The notes under the pieces: generated by a model
Seen by the model: the letters and a program-made list of their open reading frames with translations, nothing else
Database searches by the model: none
Told to the model about the DNA's origin: nothing
NCBI GenBank assembly: GCA_016186045.1
Contig: JACPMJ010000007.1
Coordinates: 1 to 57,322, forward strand
Length of the DNA: 57,322 bases
DNA from: Candidatus Uhrbacteria bacterium
Lineage (GTDB): Bacteria > Patescibacteriota > Patescibacteriia > JACQRZ01
Direction: 5' to 3'
Shown here: one piece after another, positions 13,101-28,400 of the stretch
How positions within the stretch are numbered: position 1 is the stretch's first letter
How the letters are laid out: each line of letters starts with the position of its first letter
Position numbers and translations under genes: made by a program

Positions 13101-13300
13101 CACTTGCCGACCAATCCAAGAATCAAATTGACCAAATATCCAAATCCTTGTGCGAGTTTTTCTCCAACAGTGCCGATAGCAGTACCCTGGGCATACGCAT
13201 GTTCGGCAAATCCAAATACGCCAATGCCGACTCCCATACAAATGAGCAATAAAAAAAGCACTGCTCTTTTCTTGCGCGCAATTCGTTCACATAGTGCCAT
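10154..13300 (-). CDS. VirB6/TrbL-like multi-pass membrane protein with Ala/Gly-rich and charged C-terminal regions
   Basis: 1048-aa ORF; signal peptide followed by several TM helices (FGYLVNLILGLVGKCITILIYIIIAVASYNDFIF...), then a low-complexity C terminus; T4SS context. Confidence 0.8.
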   Translation of the reverse strand: MALCERIARKKRAVLFLLLICMGVGIGVFGFAEHAYAQGTAIGTVGEKLAQGFGYLVNLILGLVGKCITILIYIIIAVASYNDFIFSTAVAKGWGIVRDICNMFFVLVLLAIAAGTILQQEKYHYSRTLPKLILMAILINFSRTICGLLIDFAQVVMMTFVGAFSAAGPGNFMAMLGVQNVLKMTEGSDVNYNTIFISLIFGLIYSFIALVVLAVIAIQLIIRIVAIWFLVTLSPFAFFLSAVPIDMAQQLSGRWWKNFANYVILGPVLAFFLWISLAVTQNAAEGKKDASDVQIHRELGDQEWPDSKDPKSGALSVGTSIAGTAPGIAGFILGIVMLLASLVAAQELSSVGGGIAAGAMNKMKSIGAGTAAMPFKLAGAGAKAGAAGAKKVGAGAVQLAKSAPAGIAAAARAGATGAGKAGAAIGSFAKGSAKAVPGIAGAAGRAGIGALKSAGKGAVRLAGTMAKTDVPALGKAGAEGLGKLGGAAKEKASTGMQAALGAARTVGGKFTAGAQATATKVGSVYKNPGEAFSAAKGALSRGAQATGNRVMVGVGTAAVKADKAIEGGKKKFGEINKATDIGVLAKKAGEAIGDTSLAKGAKEEWDKSKGLHELFKKPEPPPVKEKSELEDLKSMAEETLGGGRPTDQKPFRTLTPMGGGVAQKPESPPAKEKNEKEVKEEIGKEMEAHAAKLSPQPAQPSHAGKISRMENDLTKEQEDQKRIQKGRKQAEAALLGLDPNAEGYELRKVTLGATAKNLTDQEKAKGHTIEDLKARIQEEKQKLSDDRRFGTGDKGAQKETIEVTMQDTGQQPPPQGEDTKNLPLGVRISRLNSMKDAMMRGEKNAGGRSLQDVQKEIQGLEKQLQEREAQRRPERQAQNAQVEKEARTQELQSQMSDLDRVYKEATAIQDPHKRTEETRAIDRERQKIARELGGLSGGGEETSGGARAVSSGPSGRGGGGGSVGGSSGGGASVKSSADSPKGESKQTADAKPSGVSDNTDKKLKTLNQQQAGILKNTALSEGEKIEQLGSLTQAQGNLINKKENSKKS

Positions 13301-13360
13301 ACTTTTCTTCTGCTTTCTTAATATATATAGTATATCACAGTATCAAAAATCAGCGCAGTG

Positions 13361-13395
13361 AATAAAAAAAGACAGAAAACTCTTTTTCTGTCTGG
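13361..13395 (-). terminator. Hairpin A, copy a
   Basis: gacagaaaactctttttctgtc; on the minus strand the stem is followed by a T-run; sits after the 13462 gene stop and before the VirB6-like gene. Confidence 0.75.
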
Positions 13396-13461
13396 TTGAT
13401 GTCATTCCTCGGTACGCCATCCGTCAGCTGGCGAATGACTCGAGGATCGGCATTTTTGCCG

Positions 13462-15075
13462 CTATGGGCCGATGAGCGCCTCCTCGCTCACACGGTACAG
13501 CAGATGGCTGTTTGGAGTCCCGGCAAGTATGCCGCCATCATCTGTCAGGAGAAGGTAGAACTTCCGCTCTGACGCAGAGTACACCACGTACTCTATTTTC
13601 CATGCCTGGCCGCAACGTCCCCATTCGCTACAACTGAAACTTACATTCTGATGGTCCGAGTCCGCGAAGTACTGGAGAATCTTATTGCTACTACCGGTCT
13701 GGCGCCAATCTTTGAGATTGTACTGCCAGCGAGCAATGCTCAGATTCTGCATGAAATAGTTGTCGTCGCATACGGATATGGTCCACGGACCGTCGAACAT
13801 GGTCTCGCGACACGCTGAATTTGCGGTATTCCACGAGAAATACCATAGTGCGGTATTAGTTGCTGCCATGCGGGAGTGGAGGAGGTCATACAAGAATCCC
13901 GGCGTGGCGAAGTATTCCGGAATGGCGATGGATGTTTCTCCCGAGGGAATGGTCCCCGCGCGAATCTGCATGGTTTGCGCGGTGGTGTCCCAGCCTTCCA
14001 AGAGCTTTTTCTCCGGATATGTACTCCAGGCATTGAAAAAGTATCTTGGGCCGTTACTGTATCTCTTGCTGTAATCAACGGGGGCGTACTTTATGCAAGA
14101 GCCATACTGGTGAATATACAGGTATTCATAGCCTGGTTCGACGAATTCGAATGACTCCCCGCTATCCGCGATTTTGAACACGCCGGCATGGAGACTGCCA
14201 CTTGATCTGCACATGCGATCATTATCTGAAAATCCAAAGCCATCCATGTAGGTCCAATAGAACGCTGAGATATTGAACCGTATTTCGCCCGTCTGGGAAT
14301 AGGCGATACCGTCTATTCTTGTTTTACCAAGATACGGATTACTGCCTATATAGTACCCCTTATCGCCGGGATACAGAGGTATGTACGGCCCCGCCCCTTT
14401 GATCTCCGTGAGTCTTTCCAAGCCGGGAACGCCGTTTACTTGCGTAAACAACGGTGGCGGAGTGGGCGTGGGTGTAGGTGTTGGAGCGGGCGTAGGCGTG
14501 GGTGTGGGTATGGGTGTGGGTGTTGGAGCGGGTGTAGGAGTTTTACTTGCTATCAACCGCATGGTGACGTTGATAGCCTTATTCTCCATTACCTCCACAG
14601 ACTGGCTCGCCTGTGCCACTACTCTAGTGACATCGTCTTCCGCCCTAACAAGTAGAATAATGGGGCCTACTGGCAGAAATTCACGCGGGGATTTGGGCAG
14701 CGTGACAGAACTTGTCGCAGCATTTTCCACATCACCTGCCGGATAAGCAAATGCTTGAGCGATCTCTGTACCATCAAGCTTGAGCGCCATAAACCTGATC
14801 CACATGGTATTAGATGGAATGACCTGAACACCACGACGTGCCGGCCAACGGATGGTCAGTGTCGCGTGCCGTGCCCATTTCGTAGGATCATCCGCGACAA
14901 TTTTGTTCGCTGATGCACTATCGTCGGAATGTACCGGAACGGACGAGACATCCAAAGAGAGCTTATTGGCTACGGATGGGCTAGACGACTCCTTTGTATT
15001 GAGAGGCACTGTGGAACAGGCGATAAGGAAGCTGGCGAAGATCCACATTGAACCGAGTTGTATCCTCTTGTGCAT
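13462..15075 (-). CDS. Lipoprotein with PT-repeat linker and C-terminal SEEAL motif
   Basis: Lipobox FLIACS, TPTPAPTPTPIPTPTP linker, C terminus LLYRVSEEALIGP. Start set at ATGCACAAG behind TAAGGAG (ORF extends to 15096). Confidence 0.75.
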   Translation of the reverse strand: MHKRIQLGSMWIFASFLIACSTVPLNTKESSSPSVANKLSLDVSSVPVHSDDSASANKIVADDPTKWARHATLTIRWPARRGVQVIPSNTMWIRFMALKLDGTEIAQAFAYPAGDVENAATSSVTLPKSPREFLPVGPIILLVRAEDDVTRVVAQASQSVEVMENKAINVTMRLIASKTPTPAPTPTPIPTPTPTPAPTPTPTPTPPPLFTQVNGVPGLERLTEIKGAGPYIPLYPGDKGYYIGSNPYLGKTRIDGIAYSQTGEIRFNISAFYWTYMDGFGFSDNDRMCRSSGSLHAGVFKIADSGESFEFVEPGYEYLYIHQYGSCIKYAPVDYSKRYSNGPRYFFNAWSTYPEKKLLEGWDTTAQTMQIRAGTIPSGETSIAIPEYFATPGFLYDLLHSRMAATNTALWYFSWNTANSACRETMFDGPWTISVCDDNYFMQNLSIARWQYNLKDWRQTGSSNKILQYFADSDHQNVSFSCSEWGRCGQAWKIEYVVYSASERKFYLLLTDDGGILAGTPNSHLLYRVSEEALIGP

Positions 15076-15085
15076 ACTCATCTCC

Positions 15086-15733
15086 TTACTCCACAATCAC
15101 GTTCACTTTTCCACCGGATTTGACAGTCACGGACAGAGAGGATGATGCCTTTCCATCCAATGAAGCTGCGATGATAGCGGCAACGCCTTCTGATTGCGAC
15201 CGCACAACGCCATTCTGCACCGAAGCTATCCCCGGATCTGAAGATGACCATGTTACTGAGGAGTTTGTCGAGGTATCTGACATGGTCACAATCGCATTGA
15301 GCTTGACTTCCACTGGATTCAGTTGCCCGTCTGGATTTTGAGCGCTTACATGAATCGTCGTAGACGACTCAGCTCGTATTTGCACTTTGACGGCATATGA
15401 CGCAGGCGTAGGAGTTGGCGTGGGGATTGGCGTTGATACAGGCGTCGCCGTTTGAACGGGCGTTGTTGACGGAGATGAGGTTTGTCCCGCAGACTGGCTG
15501 GGGCTGGGCGTGATATACACTGAAGCGCTCACGCTTGGCGAAACGCTTGGAGATGAGGAGACGTCTGTATTTGGTGCCGGAGACTGGTCTTGCGAACCTG
15601 TAGGAAGCGGCGATTCTGCTGGCTTTGCAGAAGAGCTCGTTTGTGCAGGATCCGATCCATTGAGTGGGGGTATGAGCGCTACACAGCCCGCAAGGGCTAT
15701 GAACGCCAAGGGAAGCGCAGATATCCGCTTCAT
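15086..15733 (-). CDS. Lipoprotein with PT linker and BIG_2-like bacterial Ig domain
   Basis: Lipobox FIALAGC; VEVKLNAIVTMSDTSTNSSVTWSSSDPGIASVQNGVVRSQSEGVAAIIAAS matches the BIG_2 pattern; RBS AAAGGAGG. Confidence 0.75.
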   Translation of the reverse strand: MKRISALPLAFIALAGCVALIPPLNGSDPAQTSSSAKPAESPLPTGSQDQSPAPNTDVSSSPSVSPSVSASVYITPSPSQSAGQTSSPSTTPVQTATPVSTPIPTPTPTPASYAVKVQIRAESSTTIHVSAQNPDGQLNPVEVKLNAIVTMSDTSTNSSVTWSSSDPGIASVQNGVVRSQSEGVAAIIAASLDGKASSSLSVTVKSGGKVNVIVE

Positions 15734-15795
15734 GGGCTTGTATTCCTCCTTTTCTTTATTTTTTAAGGTACTGCAAAGGGAATTCTACAACACAC

Positions 15796-15820
15796 AAAAA
15801 ACCGTGTCAAGGAGACACGG
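15796..15820 (-). promoter_or_regulatory. Hairpin B, copy 1: terminator of the coiled-coil gene overlapping a promoter for the 15733 lipoprotein
   Basis: Minus strand: CCGTGTCTCCTTGACACGGTTTTTTGTG; TTGACA-17-TAGAAT lies across the hairpin. Confidence 0.7.
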
Positions 15821-15843
15821 CCATCCTTATTTTGTTTGACGAA

Positions 15844-16284
15844 TCAATTCGTCACTAAATTGAGTTTCATTTTGATAAACTGAATTTCCTGTTCCTGTTT
15901 GTCAACTTGCAACTGAATACGTTTCAACCACTCAATGGCAAACGCATGATCTTCTTCAATACGCTTCATGCGAGTCGCAATCTCCTCCAGTATTCCCAAC
16001 ATGTGCCGATAATCAGTTTTCGTCACCATCGTCTCTTCAATACGTGACAACCGCTCTCCATGATCAACGGCGGTTCCAATAAGCGAATCAAGTTTCTTAT
16101 CATGATCGTCGAGACGAGATTCTATCTTGTCAAACCGCGCGTCATGCTCTGCGAACTTCGCATCCATCTTGTCAAACCGCGCGTCATGCTCTGCGAACTT
16201 CGCATCCATCTTATCAAACCGCGCGTCAATCTTACCAAACAGTTGGTCATGATCCTCAAGTTTTTTAAAAATTTTGTCTTCCAT
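15844..16284 (-). CDS. Coiled-coil protein with tandem FDKMDAKFAEHDAR repeats
   Basis: ATG at 16284 (MEDKIFKKLEDHDQLF); promoter TTGACC-16-TATACT lies upstream (and inside the longer ORF call); the 42-bp repeat is visible in DNA. Confidence 0.7.
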   Translation of the reverse strand: MEDKIFKKLEDHDQLFGKIDARFDKMDAKFAEHDARFDKMDAKFAEHDARFDKIESRLDDHDKKLDSLIGTAVDHGERLSRIEETMVTKTDYRHMLGILEEIATRMKRIEEDHAFAIEWLKRIQLQVDKQEQEIQFIKMKLNLVTN

Positions 16285-16360
16285 ATATTCTTCAGTGATA
16301 TATCTCACCCATTCAGTATACTCTCTCAAAAAGGACGGTCAATAGTGGAAAAAATAAAAA

Positions 16361-16384
16361 GACAGAAAAACGCTGTTTTCTGTC
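16361..16384 (-). terminator. Hairpin A, copy b
   Basis: gacagaaaaacgctgttttctgtc, T-run on minus strand. Confidence 0.8.
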
Positions 16385-16454
16385 TGGATTGGTGTCATCC
16401 CAGAATGACAGTTTTTAGACAGTCTGAGGCGGACTCCCTCGCAATGACAATGAC

Positions 16455-17558
16455 TTATGGAACGAGCGCCTCCTCGCTGATGCGGTAAAGTCTATCTCCA
16501 TAAGCCTTTACCGACGTCAATATGTAGAATTTTTTTTCACTCTGTGAGTATACGAAGTGGTAGACGACCGCTGGGCCATAGCTACTGCCGAAAGACTTAA
16601 AGTACTCAACAATATTCTTACCGACCACTTCCTTCTCACCCGTTTCGTGAACGCGGAAAATGGAGGTACGGGGATCGCCAGCTATCCGAACAGATGCACT
16701 TGTCCTACCAATGAAGTAGGCGGTGGTACCGGTAAATGCCGTCCGCTCCCGCACAACGGTCAGCGCACGCTCATTCTCACAGGTCGCATCCACGCATGGA
16801 GCCTTTCCATAGTCTGGCCCGTCATCGTACGTTTTATCATCATCCAAACCAAAGATGTCCGCACTGGCGACATCTGACAGCTTGAGCGAGCCGGTGTTCT
16901 TGGTCCAGACGCTTGTGTTGAAAGAAATTTCTTTCTTCGCGACATCCACGCTCTTCACTACCCACGGTGCTACGGAAACACTTGCGGCTTCCGTGAGTTT
17001 GGAAAAGGCGAAGTCCCGCCTGGGATACTCTCCATAGAAAGTCTTTCCTGAATCCGGTTGTCCTGGGATCACTGTTTTTTTCTGACCCAGTGCGATGTAT
17101 TCAAATTCATCCTTGACACTCGTTTTCTTGAAAATCGCGAAATTTCTAAACTGCACTAGTTCAGTATCGCACGTTGAACATAGAAGCGGAGTGGATCCAT
17201 GAGGAATAATCGTCTGGATGTACATATCTCCGGACGCGGAAAGGGCAAGCCCCTCTTGACCTGGGTTATTTTCTTGTCTCTTGCCAAGATATCCACCAAT
17301 TCCCGATACTCTCTCCAGCCCGGCAACACCCTCTACCGGCACAAAATTTATCTTCAGGATATTATCCGGAAGCGGAGTCGGCACTGGCGTAGGAGTGGGT
17401 GACGGGGTAGGGGTAGGCACCGGGGTCGGAGATTGCGCCACCGTAGGCGCGGAAGTTGCGGTTTGCGCGGTGGTGTCCGCTTTTTGCGTTTGTTGCGGCA
17501 CTGATGCCACACAACCGGCGATGGCGACGAGCGCGAGAGGGAGGCTCTTCTTGAACAT
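16455..17558 (-). CDS. Lipoprotein with PT linker and SEEAL C terminus
   Basis: MFKKSLPLALVAIAGCVASVPQQTQK; C terminus RLYRISEEALVP; paralogue of 21535..22623. Confidence 0.8.
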   Translation of the reverse strand: MFKKSLPLALVAIAGCVASVPQQTQKADTTAQTATSAPTVAQSPTPVPTPTPSPTPTPVPTPLPDNILKINFVPVEGVAGLERVSGIGGYLGKRQENNPGQEGLALSASGDMYIQTIIPHGSTPLLCSTCDTELVQFRNFAIFKKTSVKDEFEYIALGQKKTVIPGQPDSGKTFYGEYPRRDFAFSKLTEAASVSVAPWVVKSVDVAKKEISFNTSVWTKNTGSLKLSDVASADIFGLDDDKTYDDGPDYGKAPCVDATCENERALTVVRERTAFTGTTAYFIGRTSASVRIAGDPRTSIFRVHETGEKEVVGKNIVEYFKSFGSSYGPAVVYHFVYSQSEKKFYILTSVKAYGDRLYRISEEALVP

Positions 17559-17636
17559 GATGGGGTACCCTTTCCTTTCTTTTCTGATGATTGTCATTCC
17601 AGACTCGATCTGGAATCCAGTAATTTATAGCCTTTT

Positions 17637-17706
17637 TGTGAAGGTACGGACTTACAAAAAGAATCCTACACACAAAAAGAGAGGGTGTCAATGGGACACC
17701 CTCTTC
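17637..17706 (-). promoter_or_regulatory. Hairpin B, copy 2, plus conserved downstream 40 bp (promoter of the 17558 lipoprotein)
   Basis: Minus strand: GAGGGTGTCCCATTGACACCCTCTCTTTTTGTGTGTAGGATTC; TTGACA-17-TAGGAT. Confidence 0.7.
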
Positions 17707-18392
17707 AAATGGCGCTCTGCCAAAAATTGAGTTGTGATTTTTAATTTTTTCGGTACGCGCAATTCATGAATGATAGGAGCCACTGTTTGCCAATCATCTT
17801 CTGTAAAATATCGCCAAAGCATACGGGAAATATATCTGCTATAATATTGCCGTTTCTCGGATTCATTGTGCCATGGCCGTTTGCAAAGCAACCCATCCCA
17901 ATTTGTAAGCGCCTCAATATCGCGCGATGTATAGCGTATCATAGTGATACATGTTCAATAAGATATGCAATCTGACGTTCCACACACGCGCGATTTTCTT
18001 CCGCATCGCGAAGAAAAATATGCAGAGGAATGGTAAACGACGTTTTTTTATCTAAAAGTTCTGTTAATAATTTTTCTTCAGTGATAGCACCTAGTCCGAA
18101 TTTTTCTTCCGCAAATTCTTCCAAGTCTTTTAGCAGCCATCCTTGTTGTTTTGTAAGAAACGCAAGATCTATGTAGTCTTTTATCTCGTCACGCGAACAA
18201 AGAGCTGAAGCCTTACTCGCCGCGCTATCCCTCAACCCCGCCGTTCGAATATTTCCAAATAATACAAACTCGTCAATATTTCTATTACCGTCCGCGAAAG
18301 GTATCACAAAACAAGGGATCGCGCTCAAATATACGCACTATCTCCCTCTGTTCGCCGGTTAAATCAATAAACTCTTTTAAATCATGCACCAT
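17688..18392 (-). pseudogene. AbiEii-like nucleotidyltransferase remnant (18392-17939) plus coupled downstream ORF (17942-17688)
   Basis: ATG at 18392 gives MVHDLKEFIDLTGEQREIVRIFERDPLFCDTFRGR*; the C-terminal part (AGLRDSAASKASALCSRDEIKDYIDLAFLTKQQG) is in another frame and the catalytic GG/GS..D.D segment is absent. The next ORF overlaps by ATGA. Confidence 0.6.
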
Positions 18393-18440
18393 ACACATTG
18401 ATTATACCAAACGCATACGCTTCGTCAAAAAAATAAAAAA

Positions 18441-18465
18441 GACAGAAAAAACGCTGTTTTCTGTC
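18441..18465 (-). terminator. Hairpin A, copy c
   Basis: gacagaaaaaacgctgttttctgtc; followed on minus by TTGACG-16-TATAAT. Confidence 0.8.
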
Positions 18466-18701
18466 TGGATTAGTGTCATCTCTTCTTTGTCATTCCAAAT
18501 CCCCGATCGTAGTCGAGGACAGGCCCGATCTGGAATCCAGAATTTTTTATTGATGCCAAGCAAAGCCTCATCGCGAAGTCCTGTCCGGTCAGACTGTCTA
18601 AGATCCTCGGGTCAAGCCCAAGCCTGTCCTCGGATTTGATCCGAGGAATGACATAAAAGGCAGGCTAAGAATGACAGTAATCACACTATTTTACGAGCTT
18701 T

Positions 18702-18750
18702 TTGTGAAGGTACGGACTTTAAAAAGGATTTTACACACAAAAAGAGAGGG
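18702..18750 (-). promoter_or_regulatory. Hairpin B, copy 3: left arm missing, promoter half retained
   Basis: Minus strand: ATGGTATATTGACACCCTCTCTTTTTGTGTGTAAAATCC; TTGACA-17-TAAAAT; the ATPase stop codon TGA lies in the -35. Confidence 0.65.
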
Positions 18751-18752
18751 TG

Positions 18753-19913
18753 TCAATATACCATAAGCGGATTTCCGGATTCAATGAGCTGTACATCTGT
18801 TTCGTATGATTTTGAGAATGACGTTTTCTTAAATGTCTTTTTTTTCCATTTTATTTCATACGCGCTTAGCGCGTCTCCCTCTTTTACGATCAAATCAACT
18901 TCTCCGCCAAAACGAGAACGCCAAAAATAAAGACTTCGTGTTCCGCCGCGCAAGAGATTATCTTTTGCCCATTCCGAGATCACCCAATTTTCCCATAACG
19001 CCCCGATATCGGAACGCAATGGACTCTGAGAAAATTCCTTAAGAATAGCATTTCGGACTCCCGTATCCCAAAAATAAATTTTTTTGCTTTTTGATATCTC
19101 TTTTCGCGGATTTGTGCTAAAAGCAGGCAAACAAAAAATAACATACGTTTGCTCAAGAAGCTCTATATATCGCTCTACAGTCTGTCGAGAAATACCAAGA
19201 GCTATGGATAGCTCATGTACTGAAACCTCCGATCCTATTTGATGCGCAAGAAGCATAAGTAAGCGATGTAATGAGACAGGAGTCTTTACGAGTCCAATTT
19301 GCAAAATATCTTTCAAGAGATAATCAGATGAAAGTTGAATAAGAAATGTTTCTTTTTCATGGGTTGTTATTGCTTCCGGATAGCTCCCGAAAACTATAGA
19401 TTGCATAAGAATTTCATGCACCTGACCTGAGAAATATTTCAATATATGATCATCAGTAAACGTATCGCTATACCATTCTTGAGCAGCGAGTATTTCACGG
19501 AATGCGAGCTGGGGAAGAAATAATTTTTCATTTCGCCCTGCTAAACTTTCTGCCGCTTGATTGAGAAGATTCAAACTTGAAGATCCAAGAAGAAATATTT
19601 TTACCTGGGTACTCGCGTCGTACCATCCTTTTATAATCCGAGCTGCTTCAGGAAGACGTTGTGCTTCATCCAGTACAAAAATCTTAGGGTTACCAAATAA
19701 CAGAATGGCATGAGTAGGATTTAATGAGGAGACAGAAAGAAATCGCTGGCGATCAACCTCAACATCCATATTCAGAAATATCACTTTTTCATCCTTAAAA
19801 ACGTGTTGAATAAGCGTTGTTTTGCCAACCTGCCGCGCACCTACAATAATCCCAATCTTAGATGTATGTAGCATTTTTAAGAGAATATTTTCTGCTTTTC
19901 TTTTTATAAACAT
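18753..19913 (-). CDS. AAA_14/DUF4143 family ATPase
   Basis: GARQVGKTTLIQHVF, IFVLDEAQRLPEAARIIKGWYD, LGSSSLNLLNQAAESLAGR, C-terminal FWRSRFGGEVDLIVKEGDALSAYEIKW. Confidence 0.9.
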   Translation of the reverse strand: MFIKRKAENILLKMLHTSKIGIIVGARQVGKTTLIQHVFKDEKVIFLNMDVEVDRQRFLSVSSLNPTHAILLFGNPKIFVLDEAQRLPEAARIIKGWYDASTQVKIFLLGSSSLNLLNQAAESLAGRNEKLFLPQLAFREILAAQEWYSDTFTDDHILKYFSGQVHEILMQSIVFGSYPEAITTHEKETFLIQLSSDYLLKDILQIGLVKTPVSLHRLLMLLAHQIGSEVSVHELSIALGISRQTVERYIELLEQTYVIFCLPAFSTNPRKEISKSKKIYFWDTGVRNAILKEFSQSPLRSDIGALWENWVISEWAKDNLLRGGTRSLYFWRSRFGGEVDLIVKEGDALSAYEIKWKKKTFKKTSFSKSYETDVQLIESGNPLMVY

Positions 19914-19951
19914 ACGATTATTCGCATTATAAATAATATTTTATATTATTA

Positions 19952-19981
19952 AGTATACAATATAGCCTGCTATATTGTCAA
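19952..19981 (-). promoter_or_regulatory. Promoter with a 22-bp palindrome between -35 and -10 (putative operator)
   Basis: Minus strand: TTGACA-18-TATACT; the palindrome ACAATATAGC-ag-GCTATATTGT spans 19957..19978. Confidence 0.7.
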
Positions 19982-20007
19982 ATATATTGACTAAAAGTAA
20001 TAAAAAA

Positions 20008-20057
20008 GACAAAAAAACGCTGTTTTCTGTCTGAGGATGTCAATGGGACACCCTCTC
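20008..20057 (-). terminator. Fused hairpins A (copy d) and B (copy 4) without the usual spacer
   Basis: gacaaaaaaacgctgttttctgtc directly followed by tgaggatgtcaatgggacaccctctc. Confidence 0.75.
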
Positions 20058-20097
20058 TCCATACTATTCTCACTATATATTTAATAGACGAAACCCT

Positions 20098-21228
20098 TTA
20101 AAGAATCTTTTGTAACGATATGCACCGTATTCTTCCTATCTGCCTCAAAATATGAGGGGGTTTTCTTCTCTTTTTTACCGCGTTCCACTTGCATTCATAC
20201 AAACTCACTCGGGACCCTTGCTCTTCTATGAGATCAATCTCTGCTCCGTCATATGTCCGCCAAAAATATTGCAAAGCAGAAATTCCGTGATACGCGCGAT
20301 ACTTCATCCGTTCGGCAATAATAAAATTCTCCCAGAGTCCGCCCATGTCCGTACGCTCACCTGAAAAATTAAAATTATTTATAATCACGTTCCGAATGCC
20401 GGTATCATAAAAGTATATCTTTTTCAGTTTTGTGATTTCCCGCCGTTTATTTTTTGTATACGGAGGAAGACGAAAAATAATGTAATTTTTTTCCAGTAAA
20501 TCTATATAGCGCTCTACGGTTTTCACATCTATGCCACACGTACGAGAAAGTTCATTCATTGAGTATTCCGATCCTATTTGAAGACCGAGCGCTTTGAGGA
20601 GAGAAAAAAGCACTTGCGGATTCTTCACTTGTTGAAATTCAAAAATGTCCTTATACAGAGCGCTGGATGCCAACTCACGCAAAAGTCTCTCTTTTGAATC
20701 AAAGGATGCCTGAGATACAATCTCAGGATATGATCCGAATATCATAAGATGTTCTATTTTTTTTCGCTGTGAGATCGGATCAAGCTCGGAAAATATTTCT
20801 TCTAACGAAAGAGGATAGAGAATATGCGTGAATTTCCTTCCCGTCAACGATTCTGATGTGGCGTCAAGAAGGTTAATACTTGATGACCCCGTCACGATAA
20901 TCTGTTTTTTCTTCTTATAATAATCCACAAGTATCTTGACTGTCTGTCCGATATCAGCTACTTTCTGACCTTCATCTATAAAAACAATATCATAATCGTT
21001 TACCAATCCTTTTAAAAATAAGCTATTCTTGCCCGCAAGAAGATCCCTGTCATGCGGATCATCACAATTAAATGACAGGATCTTTTTATTCTTAATCGTT
21101 GAGGCATGAAAAATGTCTTGCATGAGCGTAGTCTTGCCTACTTGTCTCGCGCCAATGAGGATGATCACTTTTCCAAGAAAAAAATCCTTTATGATAGTAT
21201 TCCTTAGTTTTCTGCGATAGTGAGTCAT
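20098..21228 (-). CDS. AAA_14/DUF4143 family ATPase
   Basis: GARQVGKTTLMQDIFH, IVFIDEGQKVADIGQTVK, VTGSSSINLLDATSESLTGRK, YFWRTYDGAEIDLIEEQGSRVSLYECKW. Confidence 0.9.
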   Translation of the reverse strand: MTHYRRKLRNTIIKDFFLGKVIILIGARQVGKTTLMQDIFHASTIKNKKILSFNCDDPHDRDLLAGKNSLFLKGLVNDYDIVFIDEGQKVADIGQTVKILVDYYKKKKQIIVTGSSSINLLDATSESLTGRKFTHILYPLSLEEIFSELDPISQRKKIEHLMIFGSYPEIVSQASFDSKERLLRELASSALYKDIFEFQQVKNPQVLFSLLKALGLQIGSEYSMNELSRTCGIDVKTVERYIDLLEKNYIIFRLPPYTKNKRREITKLKKIYFYDTGIRNVIINNFNFSGERTDMGGLWENFIIAERMKYRAYHGISALQYFWRTYDGAEIDLIEEQGSRVSLYECKWNAVKKRRKPPHILRQIGRIRCISLQKIL

Positions 21229-21298
21229 AAGCGTAAATTATGGATTACACTCCTTATTTTACACATATTCTTTTTCTTGTCAACCGCGTAATAAAAAA

Positions 21299-21322
21299 GA
21301 CAGAAAAACGCTGTTTTCTGTC
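21299..21322 (-). terminator. Hairpin A, copy e
   Basis: gacagaaaaacgctgttttctgtc; followed on minus by ACGCGGTTGACA-16-TAAAAT. Confidence 0.8.
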
Positions 21323-21534
21323 TGGACTGGTGTCATTTCTTCTTTGTCATTCCGAGCGGTCAGCGAGGAATCCCGACGTTAAAAACATGATACCAACGGG
21401 ATCCTTCACGGAGTTTATCCCAGATTGCGATCTGGGGTTCAGGATGACAGAAGTGAGTTTTTAGACGGTCTGAGATCCCGTTGATATAAGTAAAAAGCGT
21501 CGGGATTCTTCGAGCTTTACCCTCAGAATGACAA

Positions 21535-22623
21535 TTACGGAACGAGCGCCTCCTCGCTGATGCGGTAGAGTAAGAAGCCAGTATTCCTCGCGAGTATGTA
21601 GAACTTATGATCTGTCCGTGAGTACACAAAGTTGTGCACCACCTGTACATACGAAGATTTCGTGAAGTATGCGGCAACGCTTTTGCCCACTATCTCTTTT
21701 GCGCCGCTCTCACTGACGCGGAAGATAGTCGTACTTGTTCCTATATCATCCCTGCCAATGAAGTATGCGATTGCACCGGTGAACGCTGTCCGCTCTCGCA
21801 CCACAGAAAGCGCACGATCATCCTCGCATTCCGGAGTATTGCACGATCCTTCCCATGGAAGAATTCTAGCATAAAGACTGGAGAGCAGCACATCTCTGCC
21901 GAAAAAATCTCCGCTCGCGACATCCGAAAGCACGAGGGGCCCCGTATTCTTTGGCCAGACCGCGGTGTCGAAGCTGACCTTCTTACTAGCACGGTCCACG
22001 CTCTTCACCACCCATGGCGCCATGGAGACACTCGCGGCTTCACTCAATTTTGAGAAGGTGAAGTCCTCTCTCTCATAGAGGTAGCCTATTTTCCCGGGAT
22101 CTGAAGAGTTTGGTCCCCAAATGCCTTTTCCTGACATTGCGACGTATTCAAATTCGTCCTCGACGGTTGTCTTCTTAAAGACCGCATAATTGGGGTCATT
22201 GCCTGAACGAGATATATTCATATCACAGGCAGGACAGAGAACAGGAATAGAATTAGTAGGAATCGATACCTGAATATACATATCCCCTGATGCGGAGCTC
22301 GCAATGCCGAAGACCCTAAATTGTGAATATCCATAATTCACAGGAGAAGCGCCGAAAGTTCCGTTATCTATTAGTTCGATTTCGGGCGGCGCGGGCTGAT
22401 CTGGCCAGAATTTCAACTTGAGAATCGATTTCGGAAGCGGAGTGGGTACTGGCGTGGGAGTTGGCTTGGGGGTGGGAGTAGGCGACGGGGTCGGAGATTG
22501 CACCGCCGTTGGCGCGGAAGTTGCGGTTTGCGCGGTGGTGTCCGCTTTTTGCGTTTGTTGCGGCACCGATGCCACACAACCGGCGATGGCGACGAGCGCG
22601 AGAGGGAGGCTCTTCTTGAACAT
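21535..22623 (-). CDS. Lipoprotein with PT linker and SEEAL C terminus
   Basis: MFKKSLPLALVAIAGCVASVPQQTQKADTTAQ; C terminus FLLYRISEEALVP; N terminus and upstream DNA nearly identical to the 16455..17558 gene. Confidence 0.8.
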   Translation of the reverse strand: MFKKSLPLALVAIAGCVASVPQQTQKADTTAQTATSAPTAVQSPTPSPTPTPKPTPTPVPTPLPKSILKLKFWPDQPAPPEIELIDNGTFGASPVNYGYSQFRVFGIASSASGDMYIQVSIPTNSIPVLCPACDMNISRSGNDPNYAVFKKTTVEDEFEYVAMSGKGIWGPNSSDPGKIGYLYEREDFTFSKLSEAASVSMAPWVVKSVDRASKKVSFDTAVWPKNTGPLVLSDVASGDFFGRDVLLSSLYARILPWEGSCNTPECEDDRALSVVRERTAFTGAIAYFIGRDDIGTSTTIFRVSESGAKEIVGKSVAAYFTKSSYVQVVHNFVYSRTDHKFYILARNTGFLLYRISEEALVP

Positions 22624-22696
22624 GATGGGGTACCTTTCCTTTCTTTTCTGATGATTGTCATTCCAGACTCGATCTGGAATCCAGTAATTTATAGCC

Positions 22697-22767
22697 TTTT
22701 TGTGAAGGTACGGACTTATAAAAAGAATCCTACAGCTAAAAAGAGAGGGTGTCAATGGGATGCCCTC
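22697..22767 (-). promoter_or_regulatory. Hairpin B, copy 5, plus conserved downstream segment (promoter of the 22623 lipoprotein)
   Basis: Minus strand: CCATTGACACCCTCTCTTTTTAGCTGTAGGATTC; TTGACA-17-TAGGAT. Confidence 0.7.
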
Positions 22768-22794
22768 GCAACACTCCCTCAATACACACTTCAT

Positions 22795-23217
22795 CTATTT
22801 TTTCAGTTGCCGAAAAATAAATACGATATATTTTGTAAAATCTTTCACATTTGAGCGGAGAAGCGAAAGGAAGAGATGGGTGTCTACACTCTCATATCGG
22901 TGCACTATGCGATTTCGCAAACCAACAATCGGCGCCATTTTCTCCGCAAAATTTTTAGGCAGTATGCCGCGCTCCGCAAGCGTAAAAAATGTGCTTTGAT
23001 AATCTTCAGAGATAGGAAGATTTAGTTCCCGGATAAAATACGTATTGATGTCAATAATAGTATCAACAATAAGCTGAAGAAGCCTTTCCGCAATATGCAA
23101 TTTCCCTGAATCAGATTTGATCTGCTTATCTGAACACGCCAAAAGATCTTCCAATTCTTTGAGGTATTTGTCAATTTCAGTAAGTTTTTTTGTGACAAAC
23201 GCTTTTTCAAACCCCAT
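22795..23217 (-). CDS. HepT-like HEPN toxin
   Basis: 140 aa with RNRIVHRY (Rx4HxY motif); overlaps the 3' end of the MNT gene. Confidence 0.85.
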   Translation of the reverse strand: MGFEKAFVTKKLTEIDKYLKELEDLLACSDKQIKSDSGKLHIAERLLQLIVDTIIDINTYFIRELNLPISEDYQSTFFTLAERGILPKNFAEKMAPIVGLRNRIVHRYESVDTHLFLSLLRSNVKDFTKYIVFIFRQLKK

Positions 23218-23605
23218 ATTTTTTTGTTAAACGCAAGTGTTGATCCCGATAGAGCGGCGCCGCTTCAACGAATTGCTTAAACGCATATCCACGCATATGC
23301 GCAAAAATAAATTTTTGAGCTTCATACAATACTTTTCCGTCTTTAAAAATCGCATACAGTAACAACGGCGATGTTTTCTTGAGATTCACAATGTCAATGG
23401 CATCATTTGCAAAAAACAACGAGAGATCATATGCCAGCGCGGTTTCTTGCGCAAGAGAAAGTGTTTTCTTTGATTGAAATGCAATATCAATATCGCTCGA
23501 TGGCAGCGCCTTCCCTGTTGCGCGTGAACCAAAAAGCACAAGCAAGCTCAGCGAATACTTCCTTGCAATTTCGGTGATAGTTTTTTTCTTCGATATTTTT
23601 TTCAT
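23207..23605 (-). CDS. MntA-like minimal nucleotidyltransferase antitoxin
   Basis: LFGSRATGKALPSSDIDIAF matches GSx10DxD; start set at MKKISKKKTITEIARKY. Confidence 0.87.
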   Translation of the reverse strand: MKKISKKKTITEIARKYSLSLLVLFGSRATGKALPSSDIDIAFQSKKTLSLAQETALAYDLSLFFANDAIDIVNLKKTSPLLLYAIFKDGKVLYEAQKFIFAHMRGYAFKQFVEAAPLYRDQHLRLTKKYGV

Positions 23606-23683
23606 ATATTTTTCTCCTTCTATCATATCATGAACACCTATCATCGGCAACCATGTCAAAATAATAAACCACGTAATAAAAAA

Positions 23684-23707
23684 GACAGAAAAACGCTGTT
23701 TTCTGTC
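23684..23707 (-). terminator. Hairpin A, copy f
   Basis: gacagaaaaacgctgttttctgtc. Confidence 0.8.
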
Positions 23708-23835
23708 TGGACTGGTGTCATCCCGAGTCCCTCGGGAATACTCGGGATAAACTCCGTGGAGGGATCCCGAAGCTATACTGTTTTAGCGTCGGGATTGCCA
23801 CGGTCGCTATCGCTTCCTCGCAATGACAGAAACAA

Positions 23836-23895
23836 GGACTAACTTATAAAAAGAATCCATCACACAAAAAGAGAGGATGTCAAGTGGACACCCTC
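23836..23895 (-). promoter_or_regulatory. Hairpin B, copy 6, plus conserved segment
   Basis: Minus strand: GAGGGTGTCCACTTGACATCCTCTCTTTTTGTGTGATGGATTC; TTGACA-17-ATGGAT. Confidence 0.6.
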
Positions 23896-23898
23896 TTC

Positions 23899-25134
23899 TT
23901 ACTTCAGTAAGAAAGGCACAAAATACAATGGATATGCTTTCACTTCTGAAGATATTCTTGGACTATCTTGCCAATATACTCCGAAACATGACGATTGAGG
24001 ATGTAATTTTTGAAATAAGGAAAAATCATAGCGATGCGAGCTCTTTTTCTTAATTTCAACGGCAATCAACCTCTCTTGGAACTGCATGACAAAATCTATT
24101 TCTCTCCCAGTTTTTGTCCGCCAAAATTGAGGTTTAATTTCCCGCTTTATACATTCTTGAAACAACGCGTTCTCCAAAAGCGCTCCATTATCGCCTCGCG
24201 CGTCCAATGAACGAAAATCATTTACCACGCTATTTCTTAATCCGGTATCAAAAAAGTACATTTTGGGATTTTTAACAAGCTCTTTACGCTTATTTGTAAA
24301 ATAGGGCCGAACAAAAGAACAGATGAATGTTTTTTCTAAAAAATTTAATTGCTTTTTAAGCGTTATATATGAATATTCCGAGATAGTACATAATTCCGTG
24401 TAGTCAATCAAATTCCCAATCTGCAATCCAAGCGCCTTGATGAGTTTTTCAAATTTATAATCGTCAATAAGTCCGAGTAGATCCCGTACATCCCGTAAAA
24501 AATATGTACTATAGATATTCTTGAGAACTTCACGTTTTTCATCTAATGACTCTGACGCGAGAACGCGCGGATAACCGCCAAATAACGTATATTCCTCAAA
24601 TAATTTTGAAAAGGTGTATTGTATCTCGTCTGATAGTGAAAGAAGCTTCATTTGCGAAACGCGACGACCATACGAAAGATATGTTTCAGAAAGATGCGGC
24701 GCTTTCCACGTAAGAAACTCTTCAAAATCAAATGGATATAAATTAAAAATAAAAATACGTCCGACGAGATATTTCACCGCTTGCACCGTAAGATCAATAC
24801 TTGATGATCCTGTAACAATAATTTTAAACTGATACTGGTCGTATATATATTTTAATTTTTTTCCCCCTTCGCTCGCATACTGAAATTCATCAATAAAAAG
24901 ATACTTTGATTTTCCATAGATACTGGCAAAATTTTTGATATCTCTTTCAAAAAGGGAGAGCGTATCTCTGTCTTCAAAACTGATCATTTGCGCGGATGAT
25001 AATCTTTTAGCAAGCTCTTTTATAAGCGTCGTTTTACCGCATTGCCGCGGACCAATAATTGCCAAAATCTCAGGAGCTTCCAAATATCGTAAAATAGTGT
25101 TCTCTAATTTCCTTTTAATATACATATAAAACAA
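23899..25134 (-). CDS. AAA_14/DUF4143 family ATPase
   Basis: GPRQCGKTTLIKELAKRL, KYLFIDEFQYASEGGKKLKYIYDQ, VTGSSSIDLTVQAVKYLVGR, FWRTKTGREIDFVMQFQERLIAVEIKKK. Confidence 0.9.
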   Translation of the reverse strand: MFYMYIKRKLENTILRYLEAPEILAIIGPRQCGKTTLIKELAKRLSSAQMISFEDRDTLSLFERDIKNFASIYGKSKYLFIDEFQYASEGGKKLKYIYDQYQFKIIVTGSSSIDLTVQAVKYLVGRIFIFNLYPFDFEEFLTWKAPHLSETYLSYGRRVSQMKLLSLSDEIQYTFSKLFEEYTLFGGYPRVLASESLDEKREVLKNIYSTYFLRDVRDLLGLIDDYKFEKLIKALGLQIGNLIDYTELCTISEYSYITLKKQLNFLEKTFICSFVRPYFTNKRKELVKNPKMYFFDTGLRNSVVNDFRSLDARGDNGALLENALFQECIKREIKPQFWRTKTGREIDFVMQFQERLIAVEIKKKSSHRYDFSLFQKLHPQSSCFGVYWQDSPRISSEVKAYPLYFVPFLLK

Positions 25135-25208
25135 TATATCTTACTAAAATTATAGTACTCTATAAGAGTAGTATATATTTATATTTTTGTCAACCGCGTA
25201 ATAAAAAA

Positions 25209-25232
25209 GACAGAAAAACGCTGTTTTCTGTC
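25209..25232 (-). terminator. Hairpin A, copy g
   Basis: gacagaaaaacgctgttttctgtc; followed on minus by ACGCGGTTGACA-17-TACTCT. Confidence 0.8.
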
Positions 25233-25376
25233 TGGACTGGTGTCATCCCAAGCGGAACAATGTCATCCCGAGTCCCTCGGGAATACTCGGGATAAACTCC
25301 GTCGAGGGATCCCGATGTTTTCTACTTATAAATACGGGATTCCTCGTTTCACTCGGAATGACAAAATGAGGGAAAT

Positions 25377-25445
25377 TGTGAAGGTACGAACTTATAAAAA
25401 GAATCCACCACACAAAAAAAGACCGTGTCAAGAGAGACGACGGTC
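25377..25445 (-). promoter_or_regulatory. Hairpin B, copy 7: terminator of the giant gene plus conserved segment
   Basis: Minus strand: GACCGTCGTCTCTCTTGACACGGTCTTTTTTTGTGTGGTGGATTC; TTGACA-17-GTGGAT. Confidence 0.6.
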
Positions 25446-25475: not shown

Positions 25476-28400
25476 CTAATGCAATGGAGTATCGCTACTG
25501 CTAAACTCTCCGGGCTGTTTTGTATCTATGGGAAGCTTAAGCGTCTTGCATATCTTTGTCTTCCGACTCCAGTTGTCCATGGCCTCTATGCACACCCTAT
25601 TGCCATCAATCTTACTGTTTCTAAACGTATAACTGTTGAGGGCGAATTTAGGGTTTTTACAAGGAGTCTCCGACGGCTCCGACGACGTACATGGCGGCTG
25701 ATCCTTGTACCCATCTCCTTCATCTTTTACAGGAAGTATGGGAAAGACATTATACGAATCTTCGGGATTCACATCGCTTGAGGATAATGTCACATACCGC
25801 AAAGGAAGCTGATCATTGTCCACGTCAACATAAAATTCTATCTTTACGATCGGCGCGCTCGCGGCTCCGATCTTTATCCAGCTGAAGCTGTCTGCGGCTC
25901 CTTCTTTGTTGTAGATGCCCGGATAGCGTACCGGCCAAGCGGCGTCATTAAACCAGCGCGGCGCTGTTTTTCCCTCTGTTGCTCTGAACCTGCCGCTTGA
26001 GCCAGGCACGCCGCTTGATGACGCATCTTCATATACCTTCGCAAACGGGATGGGATGAGACGCGTAATCAAAATCATCCGCGTTAAAGTTGGATACTGTT
26101 GTGCCGGGAGCGAGAGTATTCAAAATACTCTTATCAAAATCTGAAAGAAAGAGGTTATATGTGGCATTCGTGTCATCCCACAACGGCGGCGGAGTAATCT
26201 TGCTATTATACACATCCAATGAAATCCTCCAGCCATTTGTGGCATCTCCTATGAATTTCGGTTGGCCTGAATACGGACTATTGTCGCTTGTTCGCGCCTC
26301 TAAAACATCTGTAAAATCTTTTATGGGGCTGTTAGCTGTTTTCAGCGCGACAAGAATCGCTTCTCGTTCCCTATCCGGACGGGTGTTTATGACAGCATTA
26401 TAGTTTGTATTACTGCCACTCGTATATTCTGACCACTTACTCCAATCCCAGTTAAATTTCTTCGTATCAAGCTTAAAATCTGCAACCGGAGCGCTTGGGA
26501 GCGAAAAATCAGATACGGGATCAGATGTGATTTCCGCGTTTTTGTTATACAACTTTGGTCTACTCTTGTAATATTGCTCCAATGTCTGCCTTTCACCGGT
26601 CTCATCCTCTGAATGATTTTTCGTTCCATTTGGATCTCTAGCTGCCGCCCGTTCATTGATGGTAAAGCCAAACCGATCTGCACCACTGCCCTTTGAGCCG
26701 TACCACCGCCATTGCGATATGGTGCGTTTCAGGATGATGGGCCCGGTGGACGTGGCACCTGCTTGCATCGTGGTAAGCTGTTTTCCCTTGGCTCCGCCCC
26801 AGTCAGGTTTCTCTACGTTTTTTACGATTGAATAAAACGGCACTGATTTTTTTTCTTGTGCCACGCGCACCACGCGCGCGCAATACACATCCCGATAGGT
26901 CGCCTTTGCGGTGATGTTATATCCGCCTTTTCCCAAAAGTCTGCCTCTTTGGGGGATAGGTATTGACACGCCTTGATTAGTCGCTTCCTCATTTTCTATT
27001 TCTGATTTTGGCGTCAAATTGCAAGAGGGTCCACCCATGTTCGCTCCATTATATTCAAGTACTTCCGTATAGTTTTTCGCGCAGTTGTTTACAAATCTAC
27101 CTTCTGTAGCATCCCAATGCCATTCTGTCTCCACGGTGCCTTTACGCGTGATGGTGGATGGGGGAATAACATCTCCGCCATAGGAATTATACCCAATCGT
27201 GTCCTCTCTCTCTTGGGGATCAGCGTATGCGGATGTGCCATCGGCACGATATCCTCCGGCAGTAGTACTGTATACTTCAACGAGTCTTCCCGTTATCTTG
27301 CCATTATTCGGATCTATTCCTAGGCCTACTAAGCCCTGAGGAGTACCCCCTTTTGTAGAAAAATCTCCTTGATAAAACTCTACCCTTGCGATTGGCACTA
27401 TTTCCCATTTACCGGTGGTTGCATTTTTAACAATTTTCTTTTCCACAGTAGTCACTCTGTCCTTTCTCATCACCGTCTCTTCCGCTTGCATCTTTGTATC
27501 TGCACACGGGTTGGAGGTGCAGGTTTCCACCTTATATCCCGTTTGACTAGAACCAGTTGCCCAGTCGCTCTGGTCTATATCGCCATCTTTATTACTATAC
27601 TCTCTATCGCCATACGACCCCGGTCCTCCGGTTCGAACTTTATCTACTCGATGCGTATTTTTTTCTCCGCAGGTAACCGTGCTTCGTGTTTTACACTCAT
27701 TCCATGTTTGCCCATGACACTCAACAGTTCTTTCACAAACTCTACTGGATCCCACCCAATAATCTTGAAAATGGTAGAAGTCTTGACACGTTCTTTCGGC
27801 ATTAGTTGTGGCATCATCTGGACACTTATACTCTCCTCCTGAGGAATTCTCTCCTGGATTTCCATCACACTCGTCCTTTGGGGGGTCGTTCCCACCAATT
27901 TGACCACCTGTTTTACCAGTACCGCATGCTCCTTCCTCTGCTTTATGAGTAAAAGTATTGGGACCATAGAAGTCCGCAACCGCGGCGTCCCATCCTCCTA
28001 CACAAGGATAAGAGTCTTTGCACTCATAAGGCGTTGTCGTAAAAACCCTTCTCCATGGCTGTTCTTGAGGTATATTAGAAGTACGCCAGTCTTCACTTAT
28101 ACCCGGAACTCCACTCATAGCAGTCACCGGGCTCGGATCGTATGTTGTGACTTTCTTTTTTGCAGGCAATTCCACATACCTTTGCGTACCATTCGCGCAT
28201 TTACCGTCTCCATCATTAGTTGGTCCGGCTCCTCCAAATGCTTTATCCTTAGCCTCATCACACGTCTCCACAATGCGCGCTATGACATCTGTTGTTGGGG
28301 CGAGTACGTTTCTTGCTGGGTAGTCGCTTGGATGCGTTGGGACTCCATCCTTTGTTGTAAGATCTCCCGTGTATGTTTTAGGGTATCCTGAAACATTTGT

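Follow-up and report, generated by a model that had tools for sequence, protein, structure and literature searches.

Predicted terminator–promoter blocks alternate between lipoprotein and defence-like genes at the giant/virB6 junction of a Patescibacteria type IV secretion-like locus

Gene content and layout of the array

A type IV secretion system (T4SS)-like locus of Candidatus Uhrbacteria bacterium (assembly GCA_016186045.1, contig JACPMJ010000007.1) was analysed in a window of 57,322 nucleotides (nt), the whole stretch to which all positions refer. Between the stop of a giant gene of 3,242 amino acids (aa; 25476) and the start of a VirB6-like gene (13300), ~12 kb of the minus strand is occupied by an array in which two hairpin-bearing blocks, A and B, alternate strictly (B, A, B, A and so on), with seven copies of each. 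The array had been noticed in an earlier reading of the DNA letters, referred to here as the original prediction. All seven A copies lie within 1–2 nt of where that reading had put them, the alternation is as strict as it had said, and each cargo gene sits between an A on its 5′ side and a B on its 3′ side. Six of the seven B copies are present as hairpins; the seventh (18740) is half a hairpin, in which the promoter side is kept and the other arm is lost.

A-to-B intervals hold cargo, and B-to-A intervals hold lipoprotein genes or remnants that are empty or contain only repetitive extragenic palindromic (REP) sequences. Along the minus strand, a B-REP-A unit is followed by AAA411, a second B-REP-A unit by the MntA/HepT pair, and B-lip370-A by AAA376. 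A B and an A without interior then precede AAA386, and a half-B-REP-A unit precedes an AbiEii remnant with an 84-aa open reading frame (ORF). B-lip380-A, the coiled-coil gene cc161 and a unit with two lipoproteins between B and A complete the series (Table 1). The description of B-to-A intervals as a PT-linker lipoprotein or REP sequences alone holds for most of them, the interval at 20007–20058 having zero length.

Table 1. Features of the array and its boundaries, in order along the minus strand (window positions; GC, fraction of G+C)
Feature	Position	Strand	Description
Giant gene	25476..35204	-	3,242 aa; T4SS-like locus; left boundary
B1	25421..25445	-	predicted terminator of giant gene joined to promoter of first unit (REP-only); imperfect stem with bulge
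A1	25208..25233	-	predicted terminator followed by AAA411 promoter region
AAA411	23899..25134	-	cargo; AAA_14-DUF4143 ATPase; GC 0.35
B2	23872..23896	-	pairs with A2 as REP-only unit
A2	23683..23708	-	hairpin
MntA + HepT	22795..23605	-	cargo; Polbeta nucleotidyltransferase and HepT pair; GC 0.38-0.40
B3	22745..22767	-	predicted terminator/promoter of lip370; stem partly mismatched
lip370	21535..22626	-	PT-linker lipoprotein; GC 0.52
A3	21298..21323	-	-35 TTGACA of next gene ~15 nt past hairpin
AAA376	20098..21228	-	cargo; AAA_14-DUF4143 ATPase; GC 0.38
B4	20033..20058	-	directly adjoins A4; unit interior empty
A4	20007..20032	-	C-to-T arm change; G-U pair still possible
AAA386	18753..19913	-	cargo; AAA_14-DUF4143 ATPase; GC 0.38
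B5	18728..18757	-	half block; promoter kept (TTGACA-17-TAAAAT), one hairpin arm lost
A5	18440..18466	-	hairpin
AbiEii-like remnant + 84-aa ORF	17688..18396	-	cargo; remnant at 17939-18328
B6	17680..17704	-	predicted terminator/promoter of lip380; dG -17.4 kcal/mol
lip380	16455..17561	-	PT-linker lipoprotein; 61% aa identity to lip370
A6	16360..16385	-	hairpin
cc161	15844..16284	-	cargo; coiled-coil gene
B7	15800..15822	-	B design, different stem sequence
Big_2-like lipoprotein + lip544	13462..15733	-	15086-15733 and 13462-15078
A7	13370..13393	-	predicted terminator upstream of VirB6-like gene
VirB6-like gene	10154..13300	-	right boundary

The giant protein gave only a weak match to a carbohydrate-binding domain, and an Rfam search of the window returned tRNAs only.

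Blocks A and B join a terminator to a promoter

On the minus strand, A reads AGACAGAAAACAGCGTTTTTCTGTCT followed by a T-run, and B reads, for example, GAGGGTGTCCCATTGACACCCTC followed by CTTTTTG; both fold as intrinsic terminators. The A hairpin has a predicted stability of −8.7 to −8.8 kcal/mol, and complete B copies reach −17.4 kcal/mol. With the exceptions of B3 and B5, every A and B copy has a stable hairpin and, directly behind it, a T-run on the transcribed strand. In B, the hairpin loop and 3′ arm contain a −35 hexamer, TTGACA, which is invariant across every aligned copy; the T-run falls within the 17-nt spacer, and in four copies a −10 hexamer (TAGGAT, TAGAAT or TAAAAT) comes next. 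The B stems vary by copy (GAGGGTGTC versus GGCCGTGTC and GACCGT-GTC), two base pairs being changed on both sides while TTGACA stays fixed. These two-sided changes are weak evidence of covariation, as they may stem from no more than one or two separate events. After A, a TTGACA-like hexamer and a −10 are present for most cargo genes. The stop codons of AAA386 and of the 84-aa ORF are the TGA inside the TTGACA of the next unit's B (18753–18755 and 17688–17690), and the remaining cargo stops lie 2–39 nt from a B hairpin.

The predicted minus-strand transcripts would therefore be of two kinds, promoter(B)–lipoprotein–terminator(A) and promoter(after A)–cargo–terminator(B), and for most units, though not at the hairpin-less B5, each inserted gene has its own predicted promoter and terminator. 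Insulation of the cargo, with a promoter after A and a terminator at B, had been part of the original prediction and is borne out at this level. It was drawn too narrowly: since A and B are both terminators joined to a downstream promoter, the lipoprotein units would be insulated as well. The REP-only units (18440–18757, 23683–23896 and 25208–25445) retain a promoter B and a terminator A. Their transcription could yield structured non-coding RNAs of about 150–300 nt.

The blocks are peculiar to the array. Searches allowing up to three mismatches gave 5 matches for A against 0.00 in shuffled sequence, and B gave 2 against 0.00. Across the whole 0.93-Mb genome, A at this threshold is confined to the array, as is the B block, weaker matches to B elsewhere being limited to the REP-like portion of the query. 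The exact A pattern yielded no A array in 84,980 species genomes, with single terminator-like matches in 13 unrelated genomes, and no match among viral contigs; searches of viral contigs for relatives of lip380 and VirB6 likewise found none.

Cargo families, clades and base composition

The cargo families of the original prediction are recovered with two refinements: all three large ATPases (AAA411, AAA376, AAA386) are AAA_14-DUF4143 proteins, and the AbiEii match is weak, below the Pfam cut-off. The three ATPases match PADLOC PDC-S01 over nearly the full protein (best E-values 1.8e-88 to 1.8e-132). PDC-S01 is a PADLOC candidate defence gene, and a defence role of the ATPases is putative. The toxin–antitoxin (TA) pair consists of adjacent genes for a HepT-like protein (9.8e-24) and a Polbeta nucleotidyltransferase (1.4e-18), as in the MntA/HepT system (PMC7641770). 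The original prediction's account of the region, as an ordered accessory array that lies within a T4SS-like locus, is bounded by repeats and carries TA- and defence-like cargo, stands. In the source genome as a whole, 11 DUF4143 matches were counted, three of them within the array; one gene at C17 is apparently split into two matches.

Identity among the three ATPases is 30–40%, and each is closer to genes in other genomes (63%, 58% and 51%). In an 81-row tree each falls in a separate, strongly supported clade. The ATPases are therefore not tandem copies of one another, despite their near-identical A/B edges (AAA376 and AAA411, for example, have A stretches with 94% identity across 72 nt), and tandem duplication of a single ATPase cassette was rejected on the same tree. 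The GC content of the cargo is 0.35–0.43, that of the lipoproteins 0.52–0.54, and that of the listed T4SS and backbone genes 0.46–0.49, so that two compositions alternate along the array.

Copied blocks and mosaic lipoprotein genes

Judged by sequence, the blocks are recent copies, whereas the intervening genes either share no ancestry or diverged long ago. One such profile comes from lip370 and lip380 (stretches 21535–22647 and 16455–17597). The 135 nt around and upstream of the promoter are 96% identical, the first 60 codons have 92% nucleotide identity (synonymous divergence, dS, 0.21), and the rest has 59% (dS 2.0). This drop suggests that a recombination boundary lies within the PT linker or close to it, and the profile as a whole points to a B block and signal peptide copied, by conversion, onto old paralogues. 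An AlphaFold model of lip380, built from 3 sequences, was poor (pLDDT 46). A second trace surrounds AAA411, which has a complete B-REP-A unit directly repeated on its two sides (B1-A1 and B2-A2; a 252-nt alignment with 73% identity including gaps and long perfect stretches). These repeats would fit homologous insertion of the cargo together with one unit, other routes being possible.

The giant/virB6 junction in related genomes

The giant–virB6 interval was read in 108 loci, with a giant gene found upstream in 78; the nearest genomes compared share the family, none being of the same genus, and their VirB6 is 38–51% identical. Giant genes were recognised by homology or ORF length, and a few intervals (for example in G047 and G150) may not be truly syntenic. 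ORFs of ~1,200–3,900 aa, mostly similar to the giant, lie upstream of virB6 in most genomes of the class that were read. Among the 78, the interval is ≤200 bp in 37 and longer in 41 (201–1000 bp in 13, 1–3 kb in 12 and >3 kb in 16), and the next junction, from virB6 to the following gene, measures ~3–30 bp in nine genomes of the family that were read at this point. The giant–virB6 junction is a variable site across the class, and its content differs among relatives; a fixed gene order there had been named at the outset as an observation that would count against an accessory island.

The same kinds of gene recur at this site: lipoproteins in nine genomes (G002, G004, G011, G027, G032, G049, G055, G074 and G132), MntA/HepT in G005, G008 and G019, DUF4143 in G005 and G008, HicA and AbiEii in G032, HicB in G019, and coiled-coil genes in G004, G009 and G019. 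Lipoprotein and some coiled-coil calls in relatives were made mostly by reading N-terminal sequences, without a predictor. Lipoprotein genes are duplicated at the junction in G004 and G027, and in G074 they carry a copied 236-nt terminator/promoter-like stretch (90%). Genes for Y1 (IS200-like) transposases lie upstream of virB6 in G027 (L181, 2211–2564) and G132 (L276, 12084–12794). Repeats in the intervals of G100, G154, G117, G118 and G049 were considered as paired blocks and rejected, by eye resembling REP or palindrome families. In G043 (C2), two VirB6 matches of identical score, at 653814 and 685584, lie ~32 kb apart in opposite orientation, which suggests a duplicated T4SS stretch.

A second alternating array was found in G019, which belongs to another family. 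Its giant/virB6 junction (L185, ~10422–15583) has blocks of its own, X and Y, in the order X-Y-X-Y-X and unrelated in sequence to A and B. X precedes a matrixin-like peptidase pair, an Amidase_6 pair and a coiled-coil gene; Y precedes MntA/HepT and HicB. A terminator-like hairpin is present in the first Y, and a TTGACA promoter-like site follows each of the two Y copies. Genome-wide, X occurs only within the array interval, and strong Y matches are found only there.

How the array may have been built

We consider it rather probable that a lipoprotein region has been amplified locally at the giant/virB6 junction of a Patescibacteria-type T4SS, its terminator–promoter junctions being copied and foreign single-gene units taken in; the label Patescibacteria-type is based on genome size, the content of the locus and its resemblance to the system of PMC12102498. 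Block B would end the preceding gene and supply the −35, in most copies also the −10, for a lipoprotein unit; block A would end that unit, most cargo having a promoter-like site directly after it. New cargo could then be tolerated at A/B junctions as its own transcription unit, leaving the giant gene and virB6 undisturbed. Copying of the blocks and the gain and loss of cargo would proceed mainly by RecA-type homologous recombination, candidate routes being ectopic conversion, unequal crossing-over and Campbell-type insertion of DNA carrying one B-x-A unit. Natural transformation may feed this exchange, since ComEC is encoded in the source genome; together with the lip370/lip380 mosaic and the direct repeats around AAA411, it makes homologous recombination among blocks the likely engine. 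REP-only and empty units would be lipoprotein units that have lost their coding part. The account also draws on the terminator/promoter anatomy of the blocks, their confinement to this locus, the separate clades of the three ATPases, the alternating GC content, the lipoprotein duplications at the junction in G074, G004 and G027, and the variability of the junction across the class.

Several points weigh against this account. Promoter-like sites in the region number 30, hardly more than the 26.4 ± 5.1 of shuffled sequences, although the block-associated ones are among the best. B5 has no terminator hairpin, that of B3 is weak, and transcription from the blocks is itself a prediction. The descent of REP-only units from lipoprotein units is our inference, and among the genomes compared, the closest of which share the family, no unit was seen present in one and absent from another with clean edges. 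Finally, cargo of a similar kind occurs at the junction in G008 and G005 without copied paired blocks, so that its accumulation does not require them.

These two genomes, with MntA/HepT and DUF4143 at the site, also favour an ordinary hotspot, in which TA and defence genes come singly by unrelated illegitimate events and the A/B copies are a by-product of tandem duplication of lipoprotein genes, providing terminators and promoters but playing no part in the gain or loss of cargo. Lipoprotein duplications do recur at the junction, and most DUF4143 matches of the source genome lie outside the array. This explanation is credible, if somewhat doubtful: non-homologous cargo adjoins near-identical A/B edges at six distinct sites, a whole unit is directly repeated on either side of AAA411, and two alternating blocks occur in G019 as well. 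A wider generalisation from the locally amplified region seems unlikely to us, namely that the giant/virB6 junction is a class-wide, recurrent, recombinase-free cassette platform, with lineage-specific alternating block pairs serving as insulators and homology arms, and with TA and defence units inserted, swapped and lost between surface-protein units.

That A and/or B serve as targets of an integron-like system, or of another site-specific cassette system, is very improbable. Ordered, repeat-bounded, TA-rich single-gene units recall chromosomal integrons at first sight, but the attC core GTTRRRY is present in 0 of the 14 blocks, no integron integrase (TIGR02249) scores above the cut-off genome-wide (sub-threshold matches also occur in all 14 control genomes), no recombinase is found among the array proteins searched, and the hairpins carry terminator T-runs and −35 boxes. 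As far as tested, the integron/attC explanation was rejected on the missing core and integrase, a lack that the original prediction had itself remarked. Slimmer still is the chance that A and B are plain generic terminators recurring by chance: both fold as intrinsic terminators and 13 unrelated genomes have single terminators resembling A, yet the blocks are limited to 12 kb of a 0.93-Mb genome in strict alternation and the copied stretch reaches well past the hairpin, so that a genome-wide spread, the other observation named at the outset as adverse, was rejected.

Comparison with known systems

Accessory hotspots with self-contained expression units are already known, and the array can be described as such a hotspot with moron-like units; a cassette mechanism is plausible. 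Phage morons are accessory promoter–gene–terminator units between conserved genes. The likeness lies in self-contained expression units, here predicted for most units, between conserved genes; the array differs in belonging to a bacterial T4SS locus, in its shared repeated boundary blocks and in comprising many units. Minimal mobile elements consist of a conserved flanking gene pair with accessory genes that differ between genomes, and their exchange is thought to be homologous, often with natural transformation. Conserved flanking genes and variable content between them are common to both, whereas the array has many side-by-side units split by two alternating copied terminator–promoter blocks, and exchange between strains is here hypothetical. 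The term, used for Neisseria, occurs in PMC3082526 and PMC3898611 among others. Chromosomal integrons share ordered, mostly single-gene units, repeat boundaries and TA cargo; unlike them, the array lacks an attC core and integron integrase, its cargo has its own predicted promoters, and two blocks alternate in place of one attC per cassette. Defence and TA islands match in cargo families (PDC-S01, MntA/HepT), but in the array lipoprotein units and copied junctions keep the cargo genes apart, in place of direct clustering.

A further described system is the Patescibacteria T4SS locus of PMC12102498, with the same chromosomal VirB4/TraG, PrgI/VirB3 and VirB6 gene set. A term search of its main text gave no ‘giant’, ‘variable’ or ‘hotspot’, and ‘lipoprotein’ once in passing (VirB7). 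No published account of the array was found in the literature searched, and the main-text passages of PMC12102498 that were searched do not discuss the region. The genomes of Patescibacteria are tiny, and a role in living on host cells has been proposed for their T4SS (PMC12102498). The presence within this locus, across many genera, of a variable region of surface lipoproteins and TA/defence genes suggests a place at which the cells vary the features displayed to hosts or rivals. Calling the array an undescribed kind of island is too strong where mobility is concerned, as no recombinase, integron integrase or attC core accompanies it; what is unusual is the alternation of two blocks, found again in a single further family (G019), where the blocks are unrelated in sequence. 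A copied terminator–promoter junction that admits foreign genes without disturbing an operon would, if true, be a simple recombinase-free route to gene arrays, and a class-wide platform of this kind, if real, would amount to an integron-like array run by homologous recombination.

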